A stretch of 64,000 nt of DNA from Ehretia macrophylla. Lineage: Eukaryota; Streptophyta; Magnoliopsida; Boraginales; Ehretiaceae. The notes below the pieces were generated by a model. The model saw nothing but the letters and a program-made list of their open reading frames with translations. It was not told the origin of the DNA and did no database searches. A program made the translations under genes and the position numbers. Location of the stretch: positions 19,131,425-19,195,424 of the forward strand of contig CM075771.1 in assembly GCA_037974665.1 (NCBI GenBank). Reading direction: 5' to 3'. Within the stretch, counting starts at the first letter, position 1. Each line of letters opens with the position of its first letter. Shown piece after piece: positions 346 to 50,142 of this stretch.

Positions 346-1114
346 TCGATAAGCCCATTGGGCCTTTTGAATGAGCTGCATCTCTGGGCTGGGACTGTGA
401 ACCGTCAACACATAAAGCCTTTGCCTACTTAATATGACAGGTGCGATCATCCCAGCACTAATGCAATGGATCCCATCAGAACTCCGAAGTTAAGCGTGGT
501 TGGGCGAGAGTAGTACTAGGATGGGTGACACCCTGGGAAGTCCTCGTGTTGCACCCCCTATTCGTTTTGTTTTTTTAACCCCGTTCAGCCTTGCCAAGTT
601 CCTTCTTCCATCACATTTCTGTTCTTGAGTCTCACAGTATCTTGGCAAGACAACTTCATTTCGCGTAGATGCTGGACCAACAAACCGAGGGCGTGGGGCT
701 TGTGACCAGGTTTCCGTCGCACTGGTGCCCATAACTTTTGATCCGTAAGAAGTTATGCGGGGCACAGTATATCGTTAGAAAGCTCTCCTGGAGCTCTACG
801 ATGGGGGCAGCAAGCATGCTCGGCTGCGTCTATTTTGGAACCCAAAATCGAACGTTTTTATCAGCTTCGGGCCATTTTTTTCCTTTTTGTGCTACTTTTT
901 CATCCCGGGTTGTTCATAGTGAGTCGCGAAAAGGACGACAACCTAACTCGCGAGACATTAGAGGGCCCTACAATGCGTCGATATCACGTCTAGCGAGGAT
1001 GCTGCATTGTTGAAGCAGATGAGTTGTCAATAAGCCTATTGAGCCTTTTGAATGGGCCATTCTCTGGGCTGGGACTGTGTACCGTCAACACATAAGGGCT
1101 TTGCACACTCAACA
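346..1114 (+). repeat. 5S rDNA tandem array, left segment
   Basis: Direct-orientation 5S rDNA: the end of one spacer, 5S copy 1, a full spacer and the upstream promoter half of the next unit. It is cut at 1114 by a Tekay-type LTR element. The spacer order is T-rich stretch after the gene, CGTAGAG block, CCCATAACTTTTGATCCGTA, a GC-rich AGCTCTACGA block, CTTTTTGTGCTA, GAGCCGCGAAAAGGACGACA, and TGTCGATAAGCCCATTGGGC before the next gene. Confidence 0.9.
439..557 (+). rRNA. 5S rRNA gene copy 1
   Basis: Full length (119 bp). Starts AGGTGCGATC and ends GTTGCACCCC, so the terminal helix can nearly form. The A box carries one change (GTGGTTGG for GTGCTTGG); the C-box core GGATGGGTGAC is intact. A T-rich terminator follows at about 566-577. 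This is one of the better-preserved copies, with roughly half a dozen differences from the usual angiosperm sequence. Confidence 0.85.
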
Positions 1115-3474
1115 TGTAAATCTCGACACGAGAATCTATATATAATTTTAGTGTTCATAGTGCATTCATATCATTTAATAAGCAATAGCAATAATTAATA
1201 AGCATTAATATCATTTAACGTGCATATTCATCGTTTTATGTGCCAAAATGTTCAATTACGTGCATTATTGAGTTTTACGTGTTGTAGGCATTAATTGTAC
1301 TCAAATAAGTCATGAGTAGTATCTAATTAGTTGTAATTGAACCAAAATGGCAAACTAGCAAAACATGACTTAGTTGGAGGGCACTCTCGTCATTTGCCCT
1401 CTTGATATTTGTTCACCGCTATTCACTCCCACTCAAAACACACACAAACACACAAATACACACACAAAAACACTACACACACACCCACACGTTTTCAGCA
1501 TACACACACATATATACATAACAAGCTTGAGAAGAGAGGAAGAAGAAGAAGAAGAAGAAAGAAGAGAGAAAGAGGAAGGGAAGAAGCTTGCTCAAGCCTT
1601 TCGTAGTCATTTTCGAGATTTTGCTTACATTCTACAACCTTGGTCTTGCAAAACTATCACTTTGGAGGTGAGGGATTCTTTAAAACTCTTTTTAAATGCT
1701 CATTCAAGATTACATAATGCTGATTTGGTGTTAATATTGTTATAGCTTGCGTATCTAAGCTTGGATAAGGAGATTAAGTATTTTGTGTGTTGTAGAACTA
1801 GGACTTGCTTAATTTGTGAATTGATGAACTTGAGAAATCGAGAGGTGGGCTTGGTGTTGCTCAATTTGTGTGTAAAAGTTAGGAGCATGAAGTTAGTATT
1901 TAGCGTTTGGAGGTTGATTTTGATGTTGTGTGTGATGTTGAATTCTTGGTAAGTTGGTAGTTGATTGTAGGTATAGAAGGTTTTGGTTGAGGTTTGAACC
2001 ATTATTTGGTGCCTAATAAATTACATTATGTGTGCTCGATTGTCTGTAAGAATTGGGAGGAATGGTAGTAGGAAAAGGAAAGTTCATGCATTTGATGCAT
2101 TGTAGCATTCACAAGCAGAATTGGCACGACCAGATAACCCCTAGTCTACTGGTCGACCGGTGGGAGGGGGGTTGTCTGCTGGAAAGGCTTCAGGTTTGAC
2201 AGCATTACACAACAATTTTCTGGAAGCAATATCTCACCCAATTCAACTCCGAATTACATTCCGTTTGATTCTAAAGTTATCTACATTCGATAAGCTTAGA
2301 TTATAAACCAAAATAAGATTAATGAGAGCTTGGGAAGATAGGTAAAATAACTATTTAAGTTGGGACTAGTACGAAGACATTGAGTTTAATGCATGTTATG
2401 TTCCTACATTAGGGGCAACCTATTCTGTTGACCTCTACTTGCTTGTTTATGCATTATATGAACTCTATTTGGAACATGATTACACTAATATGTCAATTGA
2501 TTATTGTTACTAACCGGTGGCAACCTACTTTGTTGCCTTCGAGCTTGTTTGTTATGATTGAACTACTCTCTCGCTTGGTGTGTTTCCTTGGAGAAATGGT
2601 TGGTATAATTAAGTTATTGAACACCATGGTGGAAGTTCTGGGCCACCTGGGTGGCGTTGGGCTTGCCAGGATGGACTCGGCTACTGTGGTTGGGTTGCCT
2701 CCTGAGTACCCTTATCGATTGGTGTTTTGGGTTTATCATGGAAGCTGATTCGAGACTGGCTATCTCCAACAACTGTTCGAGTTATCGTATCCTTTGATAT
2801 ATGGTAATTTACCTTCGCTTGGGCCCTTGAGGACCTCGGAGGGTAGAGATATGTGACACTGGTTGTTTATTAATTCTTATATTTATTTGTATCTCATGCA
2901 TAACATGTTTTCAAAAAGGGTTCCTAAATATTGGAAATGTTTCCGAAAACCTACCATGACCATTAACCCTCACTGAGCTAAGTGTAGCTCATCCCTTTCC
3001 ATGACAATCTTTCAGGTGAGGCTGAGCCTGAGCTAGGGACTCAAGCTGAATGCGAGACCTGCTTGTGTGACGAGTCGGACTTCTACTTGTTGTGATCATG
3101 CTTGTTGTTAATGCTATTTTGGTGGTTAAACTATGTTAATATTGAACAACTTCAAGACTGTAATATTCTTTTGGATTTGGTCATGTAACTAACTTCTAAT
3201 GTTGGGTTGTAACCTTATTGCTAGTTTATTCTTTTAAGGCCTAGAAGGCATTGATGTTTGTGGTGTGCCTGAGGGTTGAATGTTGGCCTTGTACATATGA
3301 ACGAACAAGTTAATGAATGTTGAAGTGTCGATAGATTTGGACACCCTTCTTGAAGTTACTTATGGATATTATAAATGATTAGGTCATGAATGGATGATTG
3401 TGCAGGGTTATCTATCTAGTCCATGTCACGTTCCGGCCTTGTCTTGGCAAAGAGTTCGGGGTCGGGGCGTGACA
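1115..3474 (+). repeat. 5' LTR of the Tekay element
   Basis: Begins TGTAAATCTC and ends GGGGCGTGACA. It matches 8256-10612 along its length. It carries a CA-rich stretch (about 1437-1520) followed by a purine-rich GAAGAA stretch, near where transcription is expected to start in this group. Confidence 0.92.
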
Positions 3475-3482
3475 CCTTTAGG

Positions 3483-3494
3483 TGGTATCAGAGC
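3483..3494 (+). other. Primer-binding site, initiator-Met tRNA type
   Basis: TGGTATCAGAGC, nine bases after the 5' LTR. This is the classic plant LTR-element primer site complementary to the 3' end of initiator tRNA-Met. Confidence 0.9.
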
Positions 3495-3750
3495 TTAGCT
3501 ATTTAGCTAGGCGTAAGCTAGATTTGGAACCCCTGGTTAGTGGGTAGGAAACTTGAGATGAGAATATGTCTGAGTACTTTCAGGAATTTATGTGCTTAAG
3601 TGAGCTTATGTGCTTAACGTGATGTATTTGCTTCTTGTCTATGTGTAACCTAGGTGTAGGAGCATTGTTAACACATGTATTTACATTAATCTCATATCAG
3701 AAGGCATACGTATGATATAACCATAAATGGTCCACATGCTATGTTTATAG

Positions 3751-6700
3751 ATGGCAGGTCGTAACACCCGTGCAAATGCCGGAACACAAGGAACATGGAA
3801 TGTTAACCCAGCCAACCTCGAGATAGCCATGTTTAACATGATGACAACTGTGATAGACCGCATGAGCAGAGCTATGGAACAGCAAGTAGCAACTGCAGCA
3901 GCCACAGCAGTGACAGCCGCAACTAACAACAATAACAATAACAACAACGGTGGAGGCAATGATAACAACAATCACTGAGGTGATGCAGATGATACATTGA
4001 AGGGCTTGCTAGGATATGGACCTTCTAAGTTCCTCGATGAGCCTGACAGTGAGATGGCAGAGGCATGGCTTGCCAAGGTGGAGAAGATTTATGTGGCCAT
4101 GGACTACAATGATGAGAGGAAGGTGGCTTTTGCAACCTTCTTGTTGGAGGAGGATGCGGAGGAGTGGTAGAGAAATGAGAAGACTCGTTGGGAGCGAAAT
4201 GGCACCCCAACAACTTGGGCTAACTTTGTGAGATCTTTCAAAGGCAACTATATGTCAGAAGTGGCTCAAGAGAGAAAGAAAGAAGAGTTTCTCACTGTGA
4301 GGCAAAGAAGTTTGTCGGTGGTGCAATATGAAGCCCGATTCAACAAACTCTCCAAGTATTTGCTGGGATTGGTCCAAACAGAAAGTGCAAGAATCAAACA
4401 CTTTGTTCAGGAACTAAGGCCCGAAATTCATGATTTTCTTGCGTCTCATCATTTCACTGATTATGCCGAGATGGGTGATTCGGCATCACAAGTTGAGAAG
4501 AGGAGATTGGATACTCGTAGGGGACCGAGTCAAGTGAATAAGAGGCCGATGTTGTCACAAGCACCACAGAGATCATATTCTGCCCAGACTCAAGCTTCAA
4601 GTCAAGCTAGATCAGCCCCTACCCGACCACAACCGAGTGCTTCGGTTACTCAATCGGCCAGTGGTTCTTCGGGAAGTACTGCTACTGCCCGTAATGTTGT
4701 GTGCAGGCATTATAATAAGATGGGGCATATGGAGGCCCAATGTTGGAGAAAGAATGGTAGATGCCTTAGATGTGGCAGTGATCAACATCAGGCAAGGTAG
4801 TGCCCAAAATGGCAAGGCAAATATCAGCAGCACCAGATCACAGTCAATGCACCAGCACAAAGAGTCCAAGCCCGAGTATATGTTGTTGATCAAGAGGAGA
4901 TTCTAGAGGCTACAGTAGTGGTTGAAGGTACTTTCTTAATTTTACAACAACCGGTAAAGGTGCTTATTGATACTGGAGCCACGCGTTCCTTTATTTCGCC
5001 TCAATGTGTGCATTGCATTAAGTTGCAAGTAGGACATTTATCATGTCATGTAGAAGTTAGCAATCCTATGGGCACAAAACATGTTTCTAGATATGGATGT
5101 AGAGAATGTAAAATTCAAATAAAAGACAGGGAGTTTTTGGTTGACCTCATTATACTTCCCTTTCAAAAATATGATGTTATATTGGGAATGGATTGGTTAG
5201 CTTGCAATTATGCCCAATTGGATTGCTGAACGAAGAATGTAAAGTTTTAGGTACCGAGTCAACTTATTGATTGAGGTAAAGGGTAGATGTAATTTTTCAA
5301 GTAATACTATTGTATCCTCGATCAGGGTTGTGAAATTAATGAGAAAGGGGTGTAGTAGATACTTGGCTTACTTGATTAACAAGCCAATTGATCATGTTAA
5401 GCTTGTAGAGGTGCTAGTGGTGAAAGAATATGTTGATGTGTTTCCGAAAGAACTACCGAGATTGCCATCGAAGAGGGAGATTGATTTTATAATTGAGGTA
5501 TTGCCAGGTACTTAACCCATCTCAAAGGTACCATATCGGATAACCCCGACTGAATTACAAGAATTGAAGATTCAATTGCAGGGATTGCTAGAAAAAGGGT
5601 TTGTTCATCCTAGTTCATCTCCTTGGGGAGCCCCAGTATTGTTCGTGAAGAAGAAAGATGGCACATTGAGGCTATGTATCGATTATCGGGGGTTGAATCA
5701 GGTGACTGTCAAGAATAAGTATCCCTTGCCATTGATAGATGAGTTATTTGATCAATTACAATGAGCCAAAGTTTATTCGAAGTTTGATTTGAGGCAGGGT
5801 AATTACCAGCTTCGTATCAAGAGAGAAGACATGCATAAATCAGCTTTTAGGACAAGGTACGGATATTATGAATTTGTTGTGATGCCGTTTGGACCAACAA
5901 ATGCTCCTACCGCCTTTATGGACTTGATGCATAGGGTGTTCCAGCCTTACTTGGATCAGTTTGTGGCGATATTCATTGATGATATTTTGGTATATTCCAA
6001 GACCAAAAAGGAGCATGACAAATATTTACACTTGGTGTTACAGAAGTTGAGAGAACATCAGTTGTACGCCAAGTTCAGTAAGTGTGAGTTCTGGCTTCAA
6101 CAGGTTGCTTTCTTAGGGCATATAATCTCCCAAGCGGGAATAACAGTGGATCCATCAAAGATTGAAGTGGTGCAAATGTGGAAGAAGCTCGACAATGCTA
6201 CGGAAGTACGCAGCTTCTTGGTTTAGCCGGGTACTATAGGCGATTTATGAAAGACTTCTCAAAGATTGCTACAAGATTGACTCAAAAGAAGGTGAACTTC
6301 ACATGGGACGACAAGTGTGAAAATAGCGTCCAAGAGTTGAAGAAGAGATTGACAACCGCTCCTATCTTAGCATTGCCCGAGGGAAGTCAAGGGTTTGTCA
6401 TCTACAATGATGCTTCGAAGGGGGGATTAGGATGTGTGTTGATGCAAAATGGTCAAGTCATTGCTTATGCCTCCCGGAAACTAAAGCCTTATGAAATGAG
6501 TTACCCCACTCATAATTTGGAGTTGGCGGCTGTAGTGTTCGCATTGAAGAAGTGGAGACATTATTTATGGGGAAGCAAGTTCGAGATCTTCACTGACCAC
6601 AAAAGCTTGAAATACTTGTTCTCTCAAAAGGAACTGAACATGAGGCAAAGGAGATGGAAGGAACTCTTGGAGGACTACAATTGCACCATCAACTATGTAC

Positions 6701-8214
6701 CCGGAAAAGTTAATGTGGTAGCGGATGCATTAAGCTGAAAGGCAAGCTTGGCAAGATTGGGGATAAATGCTCTTCTAATGATTAAATCATCATTGCTATC
6801 TCAAATTAAGGAAGCTCAACAACAAGATCCACAATTCCAGAAGATAAAAGAAGACAATCCGAATTTCAAATAACAAGATGGATTGTGGAGATTTTAGAAT
6901 CGGGTTTGTGTACCGAATGACCTGGAATTGAAGAAGAAGATACTTGAAGAAGCTCATAATACAAGGTATACAATACATCCTGGGGGAGCGAAGATGTATC
7001 GTGACTTGAGGCAATTTTATTGGTGGAATAATATGAAGCAGGAAATTGCGGAGTTTGTGTCGTGTTGTTTGACATGTCAAAGGGTTAAGGCAGAACATCA
7101 AAGACCTGCAGGACTCTTACAACCTTTGGAAATTCCACAATGGAAATGGGAGCATATAACAATGAATTTCGTGACGGAGTTACCGAGGTCACCTCGAGGT
7201 TGTGATACTGTTTGGGTGATCGTGGATCGGTTAACGAAGACAGCCCATTTTATCGCAATGAATAAGACGGATAGCTTGGTGCAACGAGTTGATTTGTACA
7301 TAGCTAACATTGTGAAATTGCATGGTGTACCCATGAGCATAGTGTTTGATAGAGATCCTAGGTTTACATCGCGGTTTTGGCAAAAGTTTCAAAAGGCGAT
7401 GGGGATAAAATTGAGCTTCAGTACAACCTACCATCCTCAAACTGACGGGCAGTCCGAAAGGACCATTCAGATCTTGGAGGACATGCTACGAGCTTGTGCA
7501 TTGGATTTTGGAGGAACATGGGAAAAACACTTGCCGTTGGCAGAGTTTGCCTACAACAACAGTTACCAAGTGACGATTGGCATGGCACCTTCCGAGCCCT
7601 TGTACGGAAGGAAGTGTAGATCCCCTCTATATTGGAGTGAGGTTGGTGAGATGAAGACTATTGATCCTACATTGTTGCCGGAGATGATGGAAAAGACAGA
7701 GAATATGCATTTGATCTGGAAAATGATGCTCACCATACAAAGTAGGCAGAAAAGTTATGCCGATAGAAGAAGAAAAGACTTGGAATTTGAAGAGGGTGAT
7801 AAGGTGTTTATAAAATTGTCTCATAGGAAGGGGTTGATTCGGCATGGTAAGGGTGGCAAATTGAGTCCGAGGTACGTGGGACCGTTCGAGATTGTAAAGA
7901 AAATTAGCAAGTTAGCATACTGGTTGAGTCTACCAACAAATCTCTCCGGTATACATGACGTGTTCTATGTCTCGATGTTGAGGAAGTATCAACCTGACCC
8001 TTCTCATATCTTGAAGCCGGAACCGCTACAACTTCGTGAGAACCTCTGCTATGAAGAAAGGCCCGTGCGAATCTTGGATGAACAAGAGCAAGAGTTGCGT
8101 AGGAAGAAGATTCATATGGTGAAGGTATTGTGGAACAACCATAGAATTGAGGAAGTAACCTGGGAGTTACGGGATCAAATAGAGAAGCAATATTCGGAGT
8201 TATTTGCAAGGTAA
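3751..8214 (+). pseudogene. Decayed gag-pol of the Tekay element
   Basis: Approximate parts: gag from 3751 with a CCHC knuckle near 4700-4800; protease 4918-5230 with the DTGATRSF active-site motif; reverse transcriptase 5560-6230 with FIDDILVYS; RNase H about 6370-6735; integrase about 6930-7640, with an HHCC zinc region and catalytic core; chromodomain about 8045-8210. The integrase-chromodomain part is the longest open stretch. The region is broken by several changes and is not a working gene. Confidence 0.88.
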
Positions 8215-8242
8215 GAAGAAATTGCGAGGACGCAATTCGTTT

Positions 8243-8255
8243 AAGAAGGAAAGGA
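8243..8255 (+). other. Polypurine tract of the Tekay element
   Basis: Purine-only run AAGAAGGAAAGGA directly before the TG of the 3' LTR, in the position expected for plus-strand priming. Confidence 0.8.
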
Positions 8256-10612
8256 TGTAAAATCTGACACGAGAATCTATATATAATTATATTATTCATA
8301 GTGCATTCATATCATTTCATAAGCAATAGCAATAATTAATAAGCATTAATATCATTTAACGTGCATATTCATTGTTTTACGTTCTAAAATGTTCAATTAC
8401 ATGCATTATGGGTTTTACGTTTTGTAGACATTAATTGTACTCAAATACGTCATGAGTAGTAACTAATTAGTTGTAATTCAACCAAAATGGCAAAGTAGTA
8501 AAACATGACTTAGTAGGAGGGCACACTCGTCATTTGACCTCTTGATATTTACTCACCTAACATTACACTATTCACTCCCACTCAAAACACACACAAACAC
8601 ACAAATATACACACAAAAATACTACACACACACCCACATGTTTTCAGCACACACACACATATACACACAACAAGCTTGAAAATAGAGAAGGAAAAAGAAG
8701 AAAGAAGAGAGGATGAGGAAGAGAGAAAGCTTGCTCAAGCCTTTTGTAGTCATTTTCGAGCTTTTGCTTACATCCTACAACCTTGGTCTTGCAAATCTAT
8801 CACTTTGGAGGTGAGGGATTCTTTAAAACTCTTTTTAAATGCTCATTCAAGATTACATAATGCTCATTTGGTGTTGATATTGTTATAGCTTGCGTATCTG
8901 AGCTTGGATGAGGAGATTGAGTATTTTGTGTGTTGTAGAACTAGGACTTGCTCAATTTGTGAATTGATGAACTTGAGAAATCGAGAGGTGGGCTTGGTGT
9001 TGCTCAATCTGTATGTAAAAGTTAGGACCATGAAGTTAGCCTTAGAGTTTGGAGGTTGATTTTGATGTTGTGTGTGATGTCGAATTCTTGGTAAGTTGAT
9101 AGTTGATTGTTGGTATAGAAGGTTTTGGTTGATGTTTGAACCATTATTTGGTGCCTAATAAACCACATTATGTATGCTTGATGGTTTGTAAGAAGTGGGA
9201 GGAATGGTAGCAAGAAAAGGAAAGATTGTGCATTTGATGCACTGTAGCGTTCACAGGCAGAATTGGCACGACCGGACGACCCCTAGTCCACCGGTCAACC
9301 GGTGGGAGGGGGGTTCATCCGCTGGAGAGGCTTCGGGTGTGGCAGATTTGCGCAACGTTTTTCTAAGGCCATAACTCACTCAATTCAACTCCGAATTGCA
9401 TTCCGTTTGATTCTAGAGTTATCTACATTCAATAAGCTTCGATTCTAAACAAAAATCAGATTAATTAGAGCTTGGGAAGATAGGTAAAATAACTGTTTAA
9501 GTTGGGACTAGTGTGAAGACATTAAGTTTAATGCATGTTATGTTCCCACATTGGGGGCAACCTATCCCGTGGACCTACACTTGCATGTTTATGCATTATA
9601 TGAACTCTATTTGAAACATGATTACACTAATATGTCATTGATTACTGTTACTAACCGGTGGCAACCTACTTTGTTGCCTCCGGGCTTGTTTCCTATGATT
9701 GAACTCCTCTCTCGCTCGGTGAGTTTCCTTAGAAAGATCATTGGTATAATTAAGTTATTGAACGCCATGGTGGAAGTTCTGGGCCACCTAAGCAGCGTTG
9801 GGCTTGCCAGGACGGACTCGGCTACGGTGGATGGGTTGCCTCCGAAGTACCCTTATCGATTGGTGTTTTGGGTTTACCATGGAAGCTGATTCGAGACTGG
9901 CCATCAACAACTGTTCGAGTTATCGTATCCTTTAATATATGGTAACCTACCTTCGCTTGGGCCCTTGAGGACCTCGGAGGGTAGAGATATGTGTCACTGC
10001 TTGTTTATTAATTCTTGTATTTATTTGCATCTCGTGCATAGCATGTTTTCAAAAAGGGTTCCTAAATATTGGAAAAGTTTGTGAAAACGACCCGTGACCG
10101 TTAATCCCTGCTGAGCTAAGTGTAGCTCATCCCTTTCTATGACAATCTTTCAGGTGAGGCTGAGCTTGAGCCAGGGACTCAAGCTGAGGGCGAGACTTAC
10201 TTGTGTGATGAGTCGGACTCTACTTGCAGTGATCATGCTTGTTGTTAATGCTATTTTGGATGTTAAACTATGTTAATATTGAACAACTTCAAGTTCTGTA
10301 ATATTCTTTTGGATTTGGTTGTGTAACTAACTTCTAATGTTGGGTTGTAACCTTATTGCTAGTCTATTCTTTTGAGGCCTAGAAGGCATTGATGTTTGTA
10401 GTGTGCCTGAGGGTTGAATGTAGGCTTTGTATTTATGAACAAACAGGTTAATGAATGTTGAAGTGCCGATAGATTTGGGCACCCTTCTTGAAGTTAGTTG
10501 TGGATATTTTAAATGATTAGGTCATGAATGGATGATTGTACTGGGTTATCTATCTAGTCCACGTCACGCTCCGGCCTTGTCTAGGCAACGAGTTCGGGGT
10601 CGGGGCATGACA
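8256..10612 (+). repeat. 3' LTR of the Tekay element
   Basis: Begins TGTAAAATCTG and ends GGGGCATGACA, followed by target duplication CAACA. It pairs with 1115-3474, with scattered base changes and small indels. Confidence 0.92.
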
Positions 10613-10621
10613 CAACATGAT

Positions 10622-10740
10622 GAGTACGATCATACCAGCACTAATGCAATGGATCCCATTATAACTACGAAATTAAGCGTGGTTGGGCGAGAGTAGTACA
10701 AGGATTGGTGACGCCCTGGGAACTCCTCGTGTTGTACCCC
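10622..10740 (+). pseudogene. 5S rRNA copy 2, promoter split by the Tekay element
   Basis: 119 bp. This is the gene whose upstream region received the retroelement. Only about nine bases of native 5' flank remain (the duplicated CAACA plus TGAT-type bases), and the TATA-like box now lies 9.5 kb upstream. The body carries many changes, for example CCCATTATAACTAC for CCCATCAGAACTCC and GGATTGGTGAC in the C box. It ends GTTGTACCCC. It shares the GTGGTTGG variant with copy 1. Confidence 0.8.
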
Positions 10741-11305
10741 CTATTCGTTTTGGTTTTTTAGCCCCGTTCAGCCTTGCCATGATGCTTCTTCCATCGCATT
10801 TCTTTTCTCGAGTCCCACATTATCTTGGGCAAGACAACATCGCTTAGCGTAGAGCCTGGACCAGCAAACCAAGGGCGTGGGGCTTGTTATCAGGTCTCCG
10901 TCGCACCGGTGCCCATAACTTTTGATTCGTAAGAAGTAATGCGGCTCACAGTATATCGTTGAAAAGCTCTCCGGGAGCTCTACGATGGAGGCAGCAAGCC
11001 TGCCCGGCTGCGCATATTTTCGAAACCCAAAATCAATAATTTTTATCAGTTTTGGGCCACTTTTTCTTCTTTTTGTGGTATTTTTTCATCCCAAGTTGTT
11101 CGTCGTGAGCCAAAAAAAGGACAACAACCTAACTCACGGGACATTAGAGGGCCCTACAACTCGTCGAAATCACATCTTGCAAGGATGCTACGTTGTTGAA
11201 GTTGATGGGCTGTCGATAAGCCCATTAGGCCTTTTGAATGGGCCGCTTCTCTAGGCTGGGATTGTGAACCGTCAACTCATAAGTACTTTGCACACTCAAC
11301 AGGAC

Positions 11306-11424
11306 GAGTGCAATCATACCAGCACTAATGCACTGCATCCCATCAGAATTGTGAAGTTAAGCGTGCTTGGGCGAGAGTAGTACTAGGATGGGTGACCCCT
11401 TGAAATGTCCTCGTGTTGTTTCCT
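11306..11424 (+). pseudogene. 5S rRNA copy 3, altered 3' end
   Basis: A box and C box are intact, but the 3' end reads GTTGTTTCC instead of GTTGCACCCC, so the terminal helix with GAGTGCAATC cannot form. It resembles copy 10 (16076), including the unusual GGAC just upstream of the gene. Confidence 0.8.
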
Positions 11425-11994
11425 CTTTTCGTTTTGTTTTTTTGCCCTATTCAGCCATGCCAATATGCTTCTTCCATCACAGTTCTTTTCTCGTATCCCA
11501 TGGCATCTTGGGCAAAACAATTTCGCTTCGCGTAGAGGCTGCGCCCACAAACCGAGGGTGTGGGGCATAGGGCCTGTGACCAGGTCTCCATCGCTTCGGT
11601 GCCAATTACTTTTGAACCATAAGGAGTTATGTGGCACACAGTATATCATTGGAAATCTCTCTGGGAGCTCTACGATGTGGGCAGCAAGCTTGCTCGGTTG
11701 CGCTTGTTTTCAGAATTCAAAATTAAACGTTTTCATCAGTTTTGGCCTATTTTTCTTCTTTTTGTGTTGTTTTTTCATCCCGGGTTGTTTGTCGTGAGCA
11801 ACGAAATAGAAGACAACCTAACTCGTGAGGCATTAGAGGGCCCTACAACGCGTCGAAATCACGTCTTGCGAGGATGCTGCGTTGTTGAAGCAGATGGGAT
11901 GTCGATAAGCCCATTGGGCCTTTTGAACGGGCTGCCTCTCTGGGCTGGGACTAGGAACGGTCAACACATAAGGGTTTTGCGCACTCAACATGAC

Positions 11995-12108
11995 GGGTGC
12001 TATCATACTAGCACTAACGCATCTCATCAGAACTCCAAAGTTAAGCGTGCTTAGGCAAGAGTAGTACTACGGTGGGTGACGCCCTAGGAATTCCTCATGT
12101 TGCACCCC
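11995..12108 (+). pseudogene. 5S rRNA copy 4, short form
   Basis: Lacks about six bases in the CACCGGATCCCATC region (reads GCATCTCATCAG). Shares CCTAGGAATTCCTCATG and TACTACGG-type C-box changes with copy 13 (18074). The 3' end GTTGCACCCC is kept. Confidence 0.8.
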
Positions 12109-12670
12109 CTTTTCGTTTTATTTTTTTAGCCCCGTTCAGCCTTGCCAAGATGTTTCTTCCATCATATTTCTTTTCTCAAGTCCCACAGCATCTTGGGCAA
12201 GGCAACTAGCTACACGTAGAGGCTAGACCTACAAACCGAGGGAGTGGGGCTTGTGACCAAGTCTCTGTCGTTCCGGTGCCCATAACTTTTGATCCGTAAG
12301 AAGTAATGCAGCGCATAGTATATCGTTGGAAAGCTCTCCGGGATCTCTAGGATGGGGTCAGCTAGCTTGCCGGGCTGTCTATGTTTTCGAACCCAAAATT
12401 GAACATTTTCATTAATTTCGGGACACTTTTTCTTCTTTTGGTGCTGTTTTTTCATCCCGGGTTGTACATCATGAGCAGCGAAAAGGACGACAACCTAACT
12501 CGCGGGACATTAGAGTCCCTATAACACGTTGAAATAACGTCTTGCAAGGTTGCTGCGTTGTTGAAGCAGATGGTTTGTTGATAAGCCCATTGGGCCTTTT
12601 GAATAGTCTGCCTCTCTAGGCTAGAACTGTGAACCGTCAACACATAAGGGCTTTGCACACTTAACATAAC

Positions 12671-12789
12671 GCGTGCGATCATACCAGCACTAATGGACTG
12701 AATCCCATCAGAACTCCAAAGTTAAGTGTGCTTGGGCGAGAGTAATACTAGGATGGGTGATCCCTTGCGATGTCCTCGTGTTGCTTTCC
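12671..12789 (+). pseudogene. 5S rRNA copy 5, altered 3' end
   Basis: Starts GCGTGCGATC and ends GTTGCTTTCC, so the terminal pairing is lost. The A box reads AAGTTAAGTGTGCTTGG. Its spacer (for example ACACAAAATCGAATGTTACC) is close to that of copy 14 (18751). Confidence 0.8.
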
Positions 12790-13350
12790 CATTTCATTTT
12801 CTTGTTTTGCCCCGCTCAGTCTTGCCAAGATGCTTCTTCCATCACATTTTTTTCTCGAGTCCCAAGGCATCTTGGGCAAGACAATTTCGCTTCGCGTAGA
12901 GGCTGGGCCCACAAATCGATGGCTTGGGGCTTGTAACCAGGTCTCCGTCGCTCCACTGCCCATAACTTTTGATCCGTAAGTAGTTATGTGGCACACAGTA
13001 CATCGTTTGAAAGCTCTCCAAGAGCTCTACGACGGGGGCACAAGGCCTGCTCGGCTGCACATGTTTTTGGAACACAAAATCGAATGTTACCATCAGTTTC
13101 GCGCTACTTTTCTTCTTTTTGGGCTATTTTTTCATCCCAGGATGTTCATCGTGAGCCGCGAAAAGGAAGACACCTAACTCGCGGGACGTTAGAGATCCCT
13201 AGAATGCATTGAAATCACGTCTTGCGAGGATGCTGCGTTGTAGAAGCTGATTGGTTGTCGATAAGCCCATTGGACCTTTTGAATGGGCCGCCTCTCTGGG
13301 TTGGGACTGTGAACTGTCAACATATAAGGGCTTTGCACACTCAACATGAT

Positions 13351-13470
13351 GGGCGCAATCATACCAGCACTAATGCACCGAATACCGTTAAAACTCCAAT
13401 GTTAAGCATGCTTGGGCGAGAGTATTACCTAGGATGGGTGACCCCCTTAGATGTCCTCGTGTTGTTTCCT
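13351..13470 (+). pseudogene. 5S rRNA copy 6, altered 3' end
   Basis: Starts GGGCGCAATC, has one extra C before the C box (TTACCTAGGATGGG) and ends GTTGTTTCC. It is preceded by a normal TATA-like ACATATAAG context. Confidence 0.78.
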
Positions 13471-14030
13471 CTTTTTGTTTTGTTTTTTTGCCCCGTTCAG
13501 CCTTGCCAAGATTCTTCTTCTGTCACAGTTCTTTCTCATGTCCCACGGCATCTTGGGAAAGACAACTTCTCTTCGCGTAGAGGCTGGGCCGGCAAATAGT
13601 GGGTGTAGGGCCAGTGACCATGTCTCCGTCGCTCCGGTGCACATAAATTTTGATCCGTAAGTAGTTATACGGCGCACAGTACATCGTTGTAAAACTCTCC
13701 GGGAGATCTACAACGGGGGCACAAGGCCTGCTCGGCTGCACATGTTTTTGGAACCCAAAATCGAATGTTTTCATCAGTTTTGGGCTACTTTTCTTCTTTT
13801 TGTGCTATTTTTTCATCCCGGGATGTTCGTCGTGAGCCGCAAAAGGACGACACCTAACTCGGGGGACGTTAGAGATCCCTACAACGCGTTGAAATCACGT
13901 CTTGTGAGGAAGCTGCGTTGTTGAAGCAGATAGGCTATCAATAAGATCATTAGGTCTTTTGAATGGGCCGCCTCTCTGGGCTGGGACTGTGAACCGTCAA
14001 CACATATGGGCCTTCCACACTCAACATGAG

Positions 14031-14149
14031 GGGTGCGAGCAAACCAGCAATAATGCACCGGATCCCATCAGAACTCCTAAGTTAAGCATGCTTGGGCGAG
14101 AGTAGTACTAGGATGGATGACGCCCTAGAAGGTCCTCGTGTTGCACCCC
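14031..14149 (+). rRNA. 5S rRNA gene copy 7
   Basis: Full length with 5' GGGTGCGAGC and 3' GTTGCACCCC. Changes include GCAATAATG for GCACTAATG, GCATGCTTGG in the A box and GGATGGATGAC in the C box. Length and ends are standard, but activity is doubtful. Confidence 0.78.
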
Positions 14150-14712
14150 ATATTCGTTTTGTTTTTTTAGCCCCGTTCAGCCTTGCCAAGGTGCTTCTTC
14201 TATCACATTTCTTTTCTCGAGTCCCACGGCATATTGGGCAAGACAACTTCGCTTTGCGTTGAGGCTGGGCCAGCAAAACGAGGGCATGGGGCCTGTCACC
14301 AGGTTTCCTTCGCTCCGGTGCCCATAACTTTTTATCCGTAAGGAGTTATGCGGCGCAAAGTATATCGTTAGAAAGCTCTCCGGGAGTACTACGATGTGGG
14401 CTAAAATCCTACTCGCCAACACCTGTTGTTTGAACCCAAAATCAAACATTTTCATCAGTTTTGGGCTATTTTTCTTCTTTTTGTGCTTTTTTTTATCCCG
14501 GGTTATTCTTTGTTAGCCGCGAAAAGGACGACAACCTAACTCGCAAGATATCAGAGGGCCCTACAACGCGTCGATATCACGTCTTGCAAGGATGCTGCGT
14601 TGTTGAAGCAGATGGGTTGTCGATAAGCCTATTTGGCCTTTTGAATGGGCTGCCTCTCTGGGCTGGGACTGTGAACCGTCAACACATATGGGTTTTCGAC
14701 ACTCAACATAAC

Positions 14713-14831
14713 GGGTGCGATCATACCAGCACTAAAGCATCGGATCCCATCAGAACTCTGAAGATATGCGTGCTTGGGCGAGAGTAGTACTAGGATAGGT
14801 GACGCCCTGAGAAGTCCTCGTGTTGCATCCC
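14713..14831 (+). rRNA. 5S rRNA gene copy 8
   Basis: Full length with good ends (GGGTGCGATC and GTTGCATCCC). The A-box region is damaged (GAAGATATGCGTGC), and the C box reads GGATAGGTGAC. Confidence 0.78.
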
Positions 14832-15395
14832 CTATTCGTTTTGTATTTTTAGCCCCATTCAGCCTTGCCAAGATGCTTCTTCTGTAACATTTCTTTTCTT
14901 GAATCCCACGACATCTTGGGCAAGACAACTTCGCTTCGCGTTGAGGCTGGGCCCGTAAACTGAGGGCGTAGGGCCTATGACCTGGTCTCCGTCGCTCTGG
15001 TGCCCATAACTTTTGATCTGTAAGGAGTTATACGGCCCACAGTATACCGTTGAAAAGCTCTCCAGGAGCTCTACAACGGGGACAGAAAGCCTGCTCGACT
15101 GCGCCTATTTTTGAAAACCCAAATCTAACATTTTCATCAGTTTTGGGGTATGTTTCTTCTTTTTATGCTATTTTTTCTTCCCGGGTCGTTCGTCGTTCGT
15201 CGTGAAAAGGCTGACAACCTAACTCGTGGGACATTAGAGGGCCCCACAACGCGTCAAAATCACGTCTTGCGAGGTTGCTGCGTTATTGAAGCAAATGGGT
15301 TGTCGATAAGCCCATTAGGCCTTTTGAATGGGCCGCCTCTCTGGGCTGGCACTGTGAACCGTCAACACACATGGGCTTTCCACACTCAACACGAC

Positions 15396-15514
15396 GGGTG
15401 TGATCATACCAGTACTAACACATCGGATCCCATCAGAACTCCGAAGTTAAGCATGCTTGGGCGAGAGTTGTACTTGGATGGGTGACGTCGTGGGAAGTCC
15501 TCATGTTGCACCAC
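15396..15514 (+). rRNA. 5S rRNA gene copy 9
   Basis: Full length, GGGTGTGATC to GTTGCACCAC. The C-box core GGATGGGTGAC is intact, followed by GTCGTGG. The A box has GCATGCTTGG. Several C-to-T type changes (AGTACTAACACATCGG) are present. Confidence 0.78.
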
Positions 15515-16075
15515 CTATTCGTTTTGTTTTTTTAGCCCCGTTCAGCCTTACCAAGATGCTTCCTTCATCACATTTCATTTCTTGAGTCCCATCGCATCTT
15601 AGGCAAGACAACTTCGCTTAGCGTGGAGGCTGGACCAACAAACTGAGGGCATGGGGCTTGTGATCAGGTCTTCGTCGTACCGGTGCCCATAACTTTTGAT
15701 CCGTAAGAAGTTATGCGGCTCACAATATATCATTGGAATGCACTCCGGGAGCTCTACGATGGAGGCAGCAAGCCTGCCCAGCTGTGGCTATTTTTGGCAC
15801 CCAAAATTGAACGTTTCATCAATTTCGTGCCACATTTTTACTTTTTGTGCTATTTTTTGGTCCCGGGTCATTCGTCGTGAGCAGCGAAAAGGACCAAAAC
15901 CCAACTCATGGAACATTAGAGGCTCTACAACGCGTCAATATGACGTCTTGCGAGGATGCTGCGTTGTTGAGGCAGATGGGTTGTCAATAAGCCCATTGGA
16001 CCTTTTGACTGGCCAACTCTCTTGGCTGGGATTGTGAACCTTCAACACATAAGGGCTTTGCACACTCAACTGGAC

Positions 16076-16194
16076 GGGTGCAATAGTACCAGCACTAATG
16101 CACTGGATCCCGTCAGAAGTCCAAAGTTAAGTGTGTTTGGGTGAGAGTAATACTAGGATGGGTGACCCCCTGGAATGTCCTCGTGTTGTTTCCT
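16076..16194 (+). pseudogene. 5S rRNA copy 10, altered 3' end
   Basis: GGGTGCAATAGTACC at the 5' end and GTTGTTTCC at the 3' end. The A box is AAGTTAAGTGTGTTTGGG; the C-box core is intact. Its closest relative in the array is copy 3. The following spacer lacks about 41 bases near 16392. Confidence 0.78.
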
Positions 16195-16714
16195 ATTTTT
16201 GTTTTGTTTTTTTGCCCCATTCAGCCTTACCGAGATGCATCTTCCATCACTATTCTTTTCTCGTGTCCCACGGCATCTTGGGTAAGACAATTTCTCTTCG
16301 CGTAGGGGCTGGGCCCGTAAACTGAGGGCGTGGGACCTGTGACCAGGTCTCTGTCGCTCCAGTGCCAATAACTTTTGAACCATAAGGAGTTACGACGGGG
16401 GTAGCAAGCTTGCTCAGTTGCGCTTGTTTTCAGAATCCAAAATCAAACGTTTTCATCAGTTTTGGGCCACATTTCTTCTTTTTGTGTTGTTTTTTCGTTT
16501 CGGGTTGTTCGTCGTGAGCAGCGAAAGGGACGATAACCTAACTCGTGAGGCATTAGAGGGCCCTACAATGCGTCGATATCACATCTTCCGAGGATGCTGC
16601 ATTGTTGAAGCAGATGAGATGTCGATAAGCCCATTGGGCCTTTTGAATGGACCGTCTCTCTGGTCTGGGACTGGGAACCGTCAACACATAAGGGCTTTAC
16701 ACACTCAACATGAC

Positions 16715-16828
16715 GGGTGCTATCATACCAGCACTAACGCATTACATCAGAACTCCAAAGTTAAGCGTGCTTTGGCGAGAGTAGTACTAGGATGGGTGAT
16801 ACCCTGGGAAGTCCTCGAGTTGCACCCC
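16715..16828 (+). pseudogene. 5S rRNA copy 11, short form
   Basis: Lacks about six bases (GCATTACATCAG) like copies 4 and 13. It reads GTGCTTTGGCGAG in the A-box/intermediate region and GGATGGGTGATACCC at the C box. The 3' end GTTGCACCCC is kept. Confidence 0.78.
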
Positions 16829-17391
16829 CTATTTGATTTGTTTTTTTTAGCCCCGTTCAGCCTTGCCAAGATGCTTCTTCCGTCACTTTTCTTTTCTCGA
16901 GTCCCACAGCATCCTATGCAAGGCAACTTCACTTCACGTAGAGGTTGGACCCGCAAACCGAGGGCGTGGGGCTTGCAACCAAGTCTCCGTCGTTTCGGTG
17001 CCCATAACTTTTGATCCGTAAGAAGTAATACGGCGCACAGTATATCGTTGGAAAGCTCTCTGGGTGCGCTACGACGGGGTCAGCCAGCCTGTTAGGCTGC
17101 GCCTATTTTCAAACCCAAAAGCGAACATTTTCATTAGTTTCAGGCCACTTTTCATCTTTTTGTGTTATTTTTTCATCCCGAGTTGTACGTCTTGAGCAGC
17201 GAAAAGGACAACAACCTAACTCGCGGGACATTAGAGACCCTATAACGCGTTGAAATAACGTCTTACGAGAATGCTTCGATGTTGAAGCAAATGGGTTGTC
17301 GATAAGCCCATGGGGCCTTTTCAATGGGCCGCTTCTCTAGGCTGGGACTGTGAACTATCAACACGTAAGGGCTTTGCACACTCAACATGAC

Positions 17392-17510
17392 CGGTGCGAT
17401 CATACCAGCACTAATGCACCGCATCCCATCAGAACTCCGAAGTTAAGCGTGCTTGGGCAAGAGTAGTACTAGCATAAGTGACCCCTTGGGATGTCCTCAT
17501 GTTGCACCCC
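17392..17510 (+). rRNA. 5S rRNA gene copy 12
   Basis: Full length, CGGTGCGATC to GTTGCACCCC. The A box is canonical (AAGTTAAGCGTGCTTGGG), but the C box is damaged (AGCATAAGTGACC). The 3' portion TTGGGATGTCCTC resembles the altered-3'-end copies, so this unit looks like a mosaic of both classes. Confidence 0.78.
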
Positions 17511-18073
17511 CTATTCGTTTTGTTTTTTTAGCCTCGTTCAGCCTTGCCAAGATACTTCTACCGTCACACTTCTTTTCTCGAGTCCCACGGCATCTTGGAC
17601 AAGACAACTTCGCTTCGCTTAGAGGCTGGCCCCGCAAAATGAGGGTGTGGGACCTGTGATCAGGTCTCCTTCGCTCCGGTGCCCATAACTTTTGATCCGT
17701 AAGGAGTTAAGCGTGCATAGTATATCGTTGGAAAGCTCTCCGGGAACTCTACGACGGGGACAGCAAGCTTGCTCGGTTGCGCCTATTTTTCTAACCTAAA
17801 ATTGAACGTTTTCATTAGTTTTGGGCCAATTTTCTACGTTTTGTACAATTTTTTTATCCCAGATCGTTCGTCTTGAGCCGCGAAAAGGACGACAACCCAA
17901 CTTGTGGGATATTAGAGGGCCCTACAACAAGTCAAAATCACGTCTTACGAGGATGCTGCGTTATTGAAGCAAATGGGTTGTTGATAAGTCCATTGGGCCT
18001 TTTCAACGGGTCGTCTCTCTGGGTTGGGATTGTGAACCGTCTGCACATAAGGGCTTTACACACTCAACATGAT

Positions 18074-18187
18074 GGGTACGATCATACCAGCACTAACGCA
18101 TCTCATCAGAACTCCAAAGTTAAGCGCGCTTTGGCAAGAGTAGTACTACGATGGGTGACGCCCTAGGAATTCCTCATGTTGCACCCC
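18074..18187 (+). pseudogene. 5S rRNA copy 13, short form
   Basis: Same six-base shortfall as copy 4 and almost the same 3' half (TACTACGATGGG, CCTAGGAATTCCTCATG). This marks the start of a duplicated block of three units, copies 13-15 against copies 4-6. Confidence 0.8.
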
Positions 18188-18721
18188 CGATTCGTTTTAG
18201 TTTTTTAGCCCCGTTCAGCCTTGCGAAGATATTTCTTCTGCCACATTTCATTTTTCGAGTCCCACGGCATCTTGGGCAAGACAACTTCGCTTCGCGTAAA
18301 GGCTGGACCAACAAACTAAGGGCGTGGGGCTTGTGACCAGGTCTCCGTCGTACCGGTGCCCATAACTTTTGATTCATAAGGAGTTATGCGACGCACAACA
18401 TACCGTTGAAAAGCTCTACGGGAGCTCTACAACGGGGGTAGCCAGCCTGCTTAGCTACACCTATTTTAGGTACCCAAATTCGAATGTTTTCATCAGTTTC
18501 AAGCCACTTTTCTTTTTTTGCGCTATTTTTTCATCCTGGGTAGTTCGTCATGAGCCGCGAAAAGGACAAGAACCCAACTCACGGAACATTAGGGGACCCT
18601 TCAACACGTCAAAATCACGCCTTGTGAGGATGCTGCGTTGTTGAAGCAGATGGGTTGTCGATAAGCCCATTGAGCCTTTCGAATGGGCCTCCTCTCTAGG
18701 CTGGGACTGTCAACCGCCAAC

Positions 18722-18750
18722 ACATAAGGGCTTTGCACACTCAGCATGAC
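18722..18750 (+). promoter_or_regulatory. Upstream promoter of a 5S unit (example: copy 14)
   Basis: The region from -29 to -1 shows the plant 5S layout: a TATA-like ACATAAG at -29 to -23, a GC pair near -15, and C at -1 before GGGTG. Most units keep this block. In copy 2 the same block is separated from its gene by the Tekay insertion. Plant 5S genes are known to use a TATA-like box near -28 together with the internal A box, intermediate element and C box; use in vivo here is inferred. Confidence 0.65.
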
Positions 18751-18869
18751 GGGTGTGATCATACCAGTACTAATGCACCGGATCCCATCAGAACTCCAAA
18801 GTTAAGTGTGCTTGGGCGAGAGTAGTACTAGGATAGGTGACCCCTTTGGATGTCCTCATGTTGCTTTCC
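18751..18869 (+). pseudogene. 5S rRNA copy 14, altered 3' end
   Basis: GGGTGTGATC to GTTGCTTTCC. The body is well kept apart from GTACTAATG, AAGTTAAGTGTGC and GGATAGGTGACC. The spacer is strikingly close to that of copy 5. Confidence 0.8.
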
Positions 18870-19431
18870 CTTTCTGTTTTGTTTTTTAGCCCCGTTCAGC
18901 CTTGCCAAGATGCTTCTTCCGTCACATTTCTTTTCTCAAGTCCCACGGCATCTTGGGCAAGACAATTTCGCTTCATGTAGAGGCTGGGCCCACAAATCGA
19001 GGGAGTAGGGCTTGTGACCAGGTCTCCGTCGCTCCAGTGCCCATAAATTTTGATCCGTAAGTAGTTATGTGGCGCACAGTACATCATTTGAAATCTCTCC
19101 AGGAGCTCTACGACGGGGGCACAAGGCCTGCTCGGCTGCACATGTTTTTGGAACACAAAATTGAATGTTACCATCAGTTTCGCGCTACTTTTCTTCTTTT
19201 TATGCTATTTTTTCGTCCCGGAATGTTCATCGTGAGCAGCGAAAAGGAAGACACTTAACTCGCGGGACGTTAGAGATCCCTAGAACGCATTGAAATCACG
19301 TCTAGCAAGGATGCTACATTGTTAAAGCAGATGGGTTATCGATAAGCCCATTAGGCCTTTTGAATGTGTCGCCTCTCTAGGTTGGGACTGTTAACCGCCA
19401 ACACATAATGGCTTTGCACACTCAACATGAT

Positions 19432-19550
19432 AGGTGCGATCATATTAGTACTATTGCACCGGATCCCATCAGAAGTCCGAAGTTAAGCGGGCTTAGGCGA
19501 GAGTAGTACTAAGATGGGTGACCCCTTGGGATGTCCTCGTGTTGTTTCCT
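19432..19550 (+). pseudogene. 5S rRNA copy 15, altered 3' end
   Basis: AGGTGCGATCATATTAG at the 5' end and GTTGTTTCC at the 3' end. The A box is changed (GCGGGCTTAGG) and the C box reads AAGATGGGTGACC. Confidence 0.78.
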
Positions 19551-20112
19551 CTTTTCGTTTTGTTTTTTAGCCCTGTTCAGCCTTGCCAAGATACTTCTTC
19601 TGTCACATTTCTTTTCTCCTGTCCCACGGCATATTGGGCAAGACAATTTTGCTTCTCGTTGATGCTGGGCTAGCAAAACGAGGGCGTGGGGCCTGTGACC
19701 AGGTTTTCTTCACTCCAATGCCCATAACTTTTGATCCGTAAGGAGTTATGTGGCGCACAGTATATCGTTGGAAAGCTCTTCGGGAGCTCTACGACGGGGG
19801 AAAGCATGCCTGCTCGGGTGCACCTATTTTTTGGACCCAAAATTGAACGTTTTCATCAGTTTTGGGCCACTTTTCTTTTTTTGTGCTACTTTTCATCCTA
19901 GGTTGTTTGTCGTGAGCTGTGAAAAAGATGACAACCAAATTCAGAAGACATTAGAGGGCCCTACAACACATCGATATCACATCTTGTGGGGATGCTGCGT
20001 TGTTGAAGTAGATGGGTTCTCGATAAGCCCATTGGGCCTTTTGAATGGGTCTTCTCTCTAAGCTGGGACTGTGAACCGCCAACACATAAGGGCTTTGCAT
20101 ACTCAACATGAC

Positions 20113-20231
20113 GGGTGCGATCATACTAGCACTCATGCACCGGATCCCATCAGAACTCAGAAGTTAAATGTGCTTGGGCGGGAATAGTACCATGATGGGT
20201 AACCCCTTTGGATGTCCTCTTGTTGCTTTCC
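20113..20231 (+). pseudogene. 5S rRNA copy 16, altered 3' end
   Basis: GGGTGCGATC to GTTGCTTTCC. The internal promoter is strongly changed (AAGTTAAATGTGC, GGGCGGGAATAG, CATGATGGGTAACC), so it is unlikely to be transcribed. Confidence 0.78.
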
Positions 20232-20792
20232 CTATCCGTTTTGTTTTTAGCCCCGTTCAGCCTTGCCAAGACGCTTCTTCCGTCACATCTCTTTTCTCAA
20301 GTCCCACGGCATCTTGGTCAAGACAACTTTGCTTTGTGTAGAGCTAGGCCCACAAATCGATGGCGTGGGGCCTGTGACCAGGTCTCCGTCGTTCCAGTGC
20401 CCTTAAATTTTGATCCATAAGTAGTTATGTAGCGCACAGTACATCGTTGGAAAGGTCTCCGAGAGCTCTACGACGGGGGCACAAGGCCTGCTCGGCTGAA
20501 CATGTTTTTGGAACCCAAAATCGAATGTTCTCATCAGTTTCAGGCTACTTTTCTTCTATTTGTGCAATTTTTTCGTCACAGGATGTTCGTCGTGAGCCGT
20601 GAAAAGGACGACAACCTAACTCGCGGGACGTTAAAGATCCCTACAACGCATCGAAATCATGTCTTGCGAGGATGCTGAATTGTTGAAGCAGATAGGTTGT
20701 CGATAAGCCCATTAGGCCTTTTGAATGGGCAGCCTCTCTAGGCTGGGACTGTGAACCGTCAACACATATGGGCTTTCCACACTCAATATGAC

Positions 20793-20911
20793 GGGTGCGA
20801 TCATATCAGCACTAACGCACCGGATCCCATCAGAACTCCGAAGTTAAGCGTGCTGGGGTGAGAGTAGCACTAGGATAGGTGACGCCCTGGGAAGTCCTCG
20901 TGTTGCACCCC
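20793..20911 (+). rRNA. 5S rRNA gene copy 17
   Basis: Full length, GGGTGCGATC to GTTGCACCCC, with standard terminal pairing. Changes include GTGCTGGGGTGAG and GGATAGGTGACG. One of the more complete copies. Confidence 0.8.
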
Positions 20912-20915
20912 CTAT

Positions 20916-20930
20916 TTGTTTTGTTTTTTT
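20916..20930 (+). terminator. Pol III T-run terminator of a 5S unit (example: copy 17)
   Basis: TTTGTTTTGTTTTTTT begins a few bases after the gene end and ends in seven T residues, followed by AGCCC. Nearly every unit has the same T-rich tract, as expected for Pol III termination. Confidence 0.7.
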
Positions 20931-21474
20931 AGCCCTGTTCAGCCTTGCCAAGACGCTTCTTCTGTCACATTTCTATTCTCGAGTCCCACAGCATCTTGGG
21001 CAACACAACTTCGCTTCACGTAGAGGTTGGGCCCGCAAACCGAGGGCGTGGGGCCTGTGACCTGGTCTCCGTCGCTCTGGTGCCCTTAACTTTTGATCCG
21101 TAAGGAGTTATGCGGCTCATAGCATACTATTGGAAAGCTCTCTGGGAGATCTATGACTGGGGTAACAAGCCTGCTCGGCTGCACCAGTTTTTGTAACTCA
21201 AAATCGAACGTTTTCATCAGTTTCGGACGACTTAACATCTTTTTGTGTTGTTTTTCATCCCGGGTTGTTCGTCGTGAGTCACGAAAAGGATGACAACCTA
21301 ACTCGCAGGACATTAGAGGTCCCTACAATGCACCAAAATTTCGTTTTGCGAGGATGCTGCGTTGTTGAAGCTGATAGGTTATCGATAAGCCCATTAGACC
21401 TTTTGAATGGACCGCCTCTCTAGGCTGGGACTATGAACCATCAACACATAAGGGCTTTGCACACTCAACCTGAC

Positions 21475-21593
21475 AGGTGCGATCATACCAGCCTTAATGC
21501 AACTGATCCCATCAGAAGTCCAAAGTTAAGCGTGGTCGGGCGAGAGTAATACTAGGATAGGTGACGCCCTGGTAAGTCCTCGTGTTGCACCCC
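21475..21593 (+). rRNA. 5S rRNA gene copy 18
   Basis: Full length, AGGTGCGATC to GTTGCACCCC. Changes include AGCCTTAATGCAACTG, GTGGTCGGGCG in the A box and GGATAGGTGACG in the C box. The GTGGT variant links it to copies 1 and 2. Confidence 0.78.
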
Positions 21594-22157
21594 CTATTCC
21601 TTTTAATTTTTTAGACTCGTTCAGCATTGCCAAGATGCTTCTTCCGTCACATTTCTTTTCTCGAGTCCTACATTATCTTGGGCAAGACAACTTCGCTTCG
21701 TTTAGAGGCTAGGCTCGCAAAACGTGGGTGTGGGGCCTGTTACCAAGTCACCTTCGCTCCGGTGCCTATAACTTTTGATCCGTAAGGAGTTATGCGCTGC
21801 ACAGTATATCGTTGCAAATCTCTCCGGGAGCTCTACGACGGGGACAGAAAGCCTACTCGACTGCGCCTGTTGTTAGAACCCACAATTGAATTTTTTCATC
21901 AGTTTTGGGCCACTTTTCTTCTTATTGTGCTATTTTTTTGTCCCGAGTTGTTCTTCCTGAGCCGCGAAAAGGACGACAACCTAACTCGCAGGACATTAGA
22001 GGGCCCTACAACGCATCAAAATCACGTTTAGCGAGGATGCTGCGTTGTTGAAGCAGATGGGTAGTCGATCAGCCCATTGGGCCTTTTGAATGGGTCGCCT
22101 TTCAGGGCTTGGACTGTGAACCGTCAACACATAAGGGCTTTGCACACTCAACATGAA

Positions 22158-22275
22158 GGGTGCAATCATACCAGCACTAACGCATCGAATCCCATCAGAA
22201 CTCCGAAATTTAACCGCTTGGGCGAGAGTAGTACTAGGATGGGTGACGCCCTGGGAAGTCCTCGTGTTGGACCCC
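22158..22275 (+). pseudogene. 5S rRNA copy 19, damaged A box
   Basis: 118 bp. The A box is disrupted (GAAATTTAACCGCTTGGG, one base short). The C-box core GGATGGGTGAC is intact, and the 3' end is GTTGGACCCC. Confidence 0.75.
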
Positions 22276-22837
22276 TTATTTGTTTTGTTTTTTAGCCCTG
22301 TTCAGCCTTGCCAAGATGCTTTTTCCGTCACATTTCTGTTCTTGAGTCCCACATTATCTTGGGAAGACAACTTCGCTTCGTGTAGAGTCTGGGCCAACAA
22401 ACTGAGGGCGTTGGGCTTGTGACCAGGTCTCCGTCGCTCCAGTGCCCATAACTTTTGATCCGTACGGAGTTATACGGCGCACAGTATATCATTGGAAAGC
22501 TCTCTGGGAACTCTACGACAGGGGCAGAAATCCTGCTCGGTTGTGCCTATTGTTGGAACCCAAAATCAAACGTTTTCATCAGTTTCGGGCTACATTTCTT
22601 CTTTTTGTGCTATTTTTTTGTCTCGGGTTGTTCGTCCTGAGCCGCAAAAATGACGACAACCTAACTCGCGGGACATTAGAGGGCCCTACAACGCGTCGAT
22701 TTTACATCTAGCGAGGTTGTTGTGTTGTTAAAGCAAATGGGTTGTCGATAAACCCATTGGGCCTTTTGAATGGGCCGCATCTCAGTGCTCGAACTGTGAA
22801 CCGTCAACACATAAGGGCTTTGCACACTCAACATGAT

Positions 22838-49266: not shown

Positions 49267-49267
49267 A

Positions 49268-50110: not shown

Positions 50111-50125
50111 GCGCAAGGAAGAAAG

Positions 50126-50142
<17 letters not shown>

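Follow-up and report, generated by a model that had tools for sequence, protein, structure and literature searches.

A Tekay-like chromovirus between the TATA-like box and the start of a 5S rRNA gene copy in Ehretia macrophylla

The 5S rRNA array and its surroundings

The window analysed here is a 64,000-nucleotide stretch of the Ehretia macrophylla genome (1.58 Gb, 20 contigs), located at G000:C8:19131425-19195424 and free of N throughout. There are 22 5S rRNA copies in the window (Rfam, gathering score), all on the plus strand. The first (439..557, +; RF00001, 89 bits) lies 5' of a Tekay-like retroelement and the second (10622..10740, +; 70.7 bits) lies 3' of it, the gene of this second copy differing from the array consensus at 13 positions. 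From there on, 21 of the 22 copies form an array with a period of ~680 bp (10622..24809, +), which ends at 24809. Apart from the interrupted spacing, the distances between successive copies (n=20) are 639–689 bp, the commonest being 680 bp (6/20). No tRNA genes were found in the window, nor in 28 insertion flanks that were scanned.

The 140 kb upstream of the window (L009-L022, G000:C8:18991425-19131424) are not 5S array, and consist instead of a 341-bp satellite made of the 5S spacer only (unit 169-510), with 192 spacer matches, mostly on the minus strand, and 0 matches to 5S genes. This satellite continues into positions 1-348 of the window and joins the 5S array at 344-348, five bases that are common to both.

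Beyond the array, an Argonaute-like Piwi fragment (26144-26419, -; Pfam Piwi, 30.4 bits; Argonaute 10 chain 7sva, E 1.4e-20) is accompanied by an Argonaute-like N-terminal frame (26883-27317, -) that was recognized by eye and has no match in Pfam. A second Tekay-like element, a solo LTR of another family with the duplication GTATT (28615..31373, +), lies in non-5S DNA outside the array. Another LTR element at 47792-56747 has LTRs of about 1.48 kb that are 93.6% identical, the duplication AGGTC and the primer site TGGTATCAGAGCC, and it showed no coding match to the pieces of the element between the 5S copies (1115-10612). A Tekay-like LTR remnant (57924-59958, -) has a located 3' end, while its 5' end was not located.

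Structure of the interrupting element

The element between the first two 5S copies is bounded by a 5' LTR (1115..3474, +) and a 3' LTR (8256..10612, +), which are 91.3% identical (K2P 0.093). The sequence 3' of the 5' LTR contains a primer binding site, TGGTATCAGAGC (3483..3494, +), which we take to be of the initiator-Met tRNA type, and a polypurine tract (8243..8255, +) is found 5' of the 3' LTR. Between them, all on the plus strand, are pieces for gag (4171..4800; Pfam Retrotrans_gag, 38.2 bits), protease (4801..5229; RVP_2, 131 bits), reverse transcriptase (5765..6226; RVT_1, 84.9 bits), RNase H (6166..6738; RT_RNaseH, 124 bits) and an integrase with a putative C-terminal chromodomain (6898..8214; Integrase_H2C2, rve and SH3_Tf2-1). 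The reading frames are interrupted by stops and frameshifts. LTRs, primer site, polypurine tract, the order gag-protease-RT-RNase H-integrase and a 5-bp duplication are together those of a Ty3/gypsy LTR retrotransposon, and the integrase matches the Ty3 integrase structure 7q5b with an E of 8e-58.

The chromodomain is less clear. Its Pfam Chromo match is weak (20.8 bits, E 3.7e-4, under the curated cut-off of 25.1), although the motif TWE and V..W can be seen by eye. The Tekay chromodomain is described by two motifs, (K/R)X(L/T)RX(k/r) and EEXTWEXE (PMC3350952), and by eye both are one residue off in the decayed copy of the window. The integrase frame ends at 8214, before the polypurine tract, as expected for the Tekay clade, where the chromodomain is 5' of this tract (PMC3605345), an arrangement common to other non-CRM clades. 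Beet Bongo, of the Tekay clade, shares the Ty3/gypsy order, the 5-bp duplication and the position of the chromodomain before the polypurine tract; however, the account of Bongo3 describes FISH signals dispersed along the chromosomes and reports no 5S promoter insertion (PMC3605345). The first-pass annotation had called this a chromodomain Tekay element. It is here termed a Tekay-like Ty3/gypsy chromovirus, a name taken from motifs and domain order. A single-sequence model of the integrase C-terminus (pLDDT 47.8) was too poor for use, and searches of viral and prokaryote sequence collections with plant 5S and with integrase sequence gave no match.

The insertion site

The element begins with TG at 1115 and ends with CA at 10612, and is flanked on both sides by CAACA (1110..1114 and 10613..10617, +). 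Because Rfam places the start of the second 5S copy at 10622, the duplicated bases correspond to -9..-5 of that gene, which has the same orientation as the element. A TATA-like CATAAG (1091..1096, +), presumably a plant 5S promoter element, lies at -28..-23 of the interrupted unit, and the duplication thus falls between the TATA-like box and the 5S start, as first annotated. When the element and one CAACA are taken out, copies 1 and 2 are separated by 680 bp, the commonest spacing of the array, which bears out the earlier claim that the empty site restores the array period. With 91.5% identity, the rejoined unit comes closer to the array consensus than any other of the 21 units.

Of the 21 other 5S copies, 15 also carry CAACA at -9..-5. 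Palindromy and A+T content at the insertion site are both unremarkable. A single insertion placed uniformly would hit a given 12-bp stretch with a chance of 1.8%, a figure that applies to a stretch picked after the fact.

Time order and state of the array

Divergence among the 5S units was compared with that of the LTR pair, using 21 units (the 20 complete ones from copy 2 on and the rejoined one, with the last, incomplete unit excluded). In K2P, all 210 pairs of units (0.103–0.260) lie above the LTR pair (0.093), and all 210 also exceed it in transversions, the mean ratio of unit-pair to LTR transversions being 2.43 (bootstrap 95% 1.85–3.33), a comparison that depends on the substitution rates of LTR and 5S DNA, which may differ. 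For the nearest unit alone the ratio is 1.39 (0.92–2.08), and since this interval includes 1, the time order is uncertain from that pair alone. Because every one of the 210 pairs exceeds the LTR divergence, decay of the array had probably begun before the element was inserted. At rates of 1.3e-8 to 4e-9, which we assume to apply to this LTR pair, its K2P of 0.093 corresponds to 3.6–11.7 million years. The rate of 1.3e-8 has also been used elsewhere (PMC5688495).

Relative to the array consensus, CG sites carry 0.173 transitions each and A/T sites 0.019, a bias that marks cytosine methylation of the 5S units. Judged from these substitutions, the target of the insertion was probably a decaying, methylated 5S unit. 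Group II chromodomains have been reported to localize to such DNA (PMC2832683, PMC12786077), and new insertions of LORE1, an element with a group II chromodomain, are described as having no strong preference (PMC2832683).

Other insertions of the same family

Searches of the genome for LTR ends of the element's family gave 417 and 499 first-look candidates, of which 40 were scored each time. Outside the window, 38 ends belonged to the family (family A), seven of which were set aside because their paired spacing is that of 5' LTRs. The ends fetched overall also number 38 (31 + 7), and removal of 10 internal ends (recognized by the primer site or by matching internal sequence downstream), one masked end and three copies of another site leaves 24 independent insertions. 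The base rate was taken from 52 random positions, the first 40 from 17 of the 20 contigs and the other 12 from 19 of the 20; three were all N, leaving 49.

Six of the 24 family insertions lie within 5S-unit sequence, as do nine of the 49 random positions (Fisher p 0.55), and with 24 sites a modest excess could escape detection. The random fraction was 7/31 at first and is 18% overall (Wilson 10–31%). A family preference for 5S arrays, suggested early on by 5 of 19 flanks, was dropped after these two random counts. The nine random 300-bp positions (out of L071-L103 and L105-L123) fall in 5S-unit or 5S-spacer sequence, and a genome search for the 5S family returned 274,483 first-look candidates; 5S-derived satellite may thus account for some 18%, or roughly one fifth, of the genome.

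In the coordinates of a 683-bp consensus unit (+1 = 1), the window element occupies 675-679 (-9..-5). The insertion L025 is at 2-6 (+2..+6), in the orientation of the 5S gene, with GGTGT as its 5' copy and GGTAC as its 3' copy, while the solo LTR L030 is at 499-503 (about -185..-181) with CCGAT on both sides. L039 (about 594-598; about -90..-86) and L068 (656-660; -28..-24) are opposite to the 5S gene, and L036 (267-271) and L038 (480-484) are in spacer repeats without gene sequence; these last four positions were determined from the 3' side only.

Across all seven insertions uniformity is not rejected (Rayleigh p 0.20, or 0.31 without the window element). The five in clearly full units give 0.029 (0.076 without the window element); two of the five are centred no more than 10 bp from +1, at -7 and +4, and another occupies -28..-24. 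For the four others, uniform placement would put at least one within 10 bp of +1 with a chance of 0.12, and at least two within 30 bp with a chance of 0.042. This is a hint of clustering near +1 in full units, from a small sample picked after looking. The first-pass annotation had held that an even spread of other insertions over the unit would speak against targeting. Such a spread is largely what was found, with sites near -185 and near -90 and others in the spacer repeats. The sites at +2..+6 and -28..-24 do not conform to it, nor do the many LTR ends that a genome-wide pattern places near 5S starts.

Recurrent sites in the satellite and near 5S starts

The upstream satellite is interrupted by another Tekay-like family, S, with an LTR of about 3.6 kb and with sites that span near G000:C8 19007558-19128492. 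Ten insertions were placed, three of them (S1, S4 and S11) from one side only, and an eleventh (S9) was excluded for its inconsistent edges. Four share unit 386-390, two are at 233-237, and one each is at 239-243, 314-318, 317-321 and 358-362. For 342 positions, four insertions at one site have a chance of 5e-6 if they are independent. One of these four has the opposite orientation, and the LTR 5' ends are 72–76% identical where compared (S2, S4 and S7), which argues that at least some of these insertions are independent. The idea that family S avoids the promoter was dropped, as a satellite without 5S genes makes these insertions uninformative on promoters.

LTR ends near 5S starts were also sought genome-wide, with the chromoviral LTR end GGGGYRTGACA placed 0–30 bp ahead of ATCATACCAGCAC, a conserved 5S-start anchor whose first base is +8. 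There were 110 matches (55 per strand), a raw count, and 0 for the reversed control. The 100 matches listed contain 44 distinct junction strings, non-uniform within the 31-bp stretch and clumped at -20 (10), -11 (5), -2 (5) and +2 (4). The clumps at -20, -11 and -2 are about 9 bp apart. Many rows repeat one string on several contigs, and block copies therefore probably inflate the 110; with 5S-unit sequence at ~18% of the genome, some hundred junctions may be expected from chance alone.

Both data sets bear on the suggestion that chromoviral integrases prefer a handful of precise positions within the 5S unit and hit them recurrently, through local DNA or nucleosome properties and without Pol III. 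The clumped strings and the shared S site would fit it. However, distinct strings are perhaps not independent insertions, several identical rows resemble block copies, duplication may account for part of the S copies, the window site (-9) is a single row among the matches listed, and its base composition and symmetry are ordinary, all of which leaves this account unlikely. More doubtful still is that group II plant chromoviruses pick exact sites (about -20, -11, -9, -2 and +2) through TFIIIB or the bound 5S promoter; if they did, the 110 junctions would be the remains of Ty3-like Pol III aiming in a plant.

Discussion

The position of the element had suggested aiming like that of Ty3 or Tj1, in which the integrase, perhaps via its chromodomain, would bind TFIIIB on the 5S promoter and insert a few bases ahead of the start site. 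Tj1 of Schizosaccharomyces japonicus inserts 1–10 bp 5' of tRNA starts and is oriented like the gene, and 5S genes received 3 of its 17 insertions; the window element resembles it in orientation and in a distance inside this range. However, 16 of the 17 Tj1 insertions are at Pol III genes, whereas the window family has no measurable excess in 5S-unit sequence (PMC4600332). Yeast Ty3 has a related integrase and also inserts 5' of Pol III starts, and its chromodomain, without an aromatic cage, contacts TFIIIB, which aims it at -6..-2 and not at the -9..-5 of the window element (PMC8632968). Plant group II chromodomains are described as missing most of the cage, with an unknown partner (PMC2832683, PMC12786077). 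The second family copy at +2..+6 in the same orientation and the raw count of LTR ends would add to this case. Against it stand the absence of measurable enrichment, the further insertions well upstream and in gene-less spacer repeats, the opposite orientation of two of the seven insertions, and an array that was probably degenerate beforehand. The suggestion of Ty3-like aiming is not supported, and we regard it as improbable. Present evidence gives no support to targeting of Pol III or of the 5S start, because 5S-like repeats seem to fill about a fifth of the genome and the sampled insertions of the family are not clearly commoner there than random positions. Among titles and abstract beginnings in the open literature, none was found that reports targeting of Pol III starts by a plant chromovirus.

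Tandem arrays generally assemble poorly and the junction is known from assembled sequence alone, but the exact duplication, the TG..CA ends, the 680-bp register and the lack of N in the window make an assembly or recombination artefact extremely improbable.

We consider it likely that the locus records an old, ordinary, integrase-mediated insertion of a Tekay-like element into a decaying, probably cytosine-methylated 5S array. Such an element may have been attracted to heterochromatic repeats, or tolerated in them, and the exact base would be due to chance or to a weak local bias of the integrase rather than to any Pol III initiation complex. The full-unit clustering (p 0.029) and the 110 LTR ends before 5S starts run counter to chance as the whole account. 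In wheat 5BS, diverged and degenerate 5S units are likewise interrupted by transposable elements, including LTR retrotransposons, a few million years old, but families and species differ, and all insertions but one, which is in a gene, are in spacers (PMC5688495). Beet Beon1, of the Galadriel clade, is also a plant chromovirus within an rRNA gene array, but at a conserved gene-body position in the 18S gene (PMC3605345).

The base rate matters for any such locus: where apparently about one fifth of the genome is 5S-unit satellite, a certain number of insertions should fall close to 5S starts anyway. If aiming were true after all, it would give a clue to what plant group II chromodomains interact with, and would extend Pol III targeting to a plant. 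In any case, the 5S-unit satellite of E. macrophylla offers ample natural material in which chromoviral integration could be mapped base by base.
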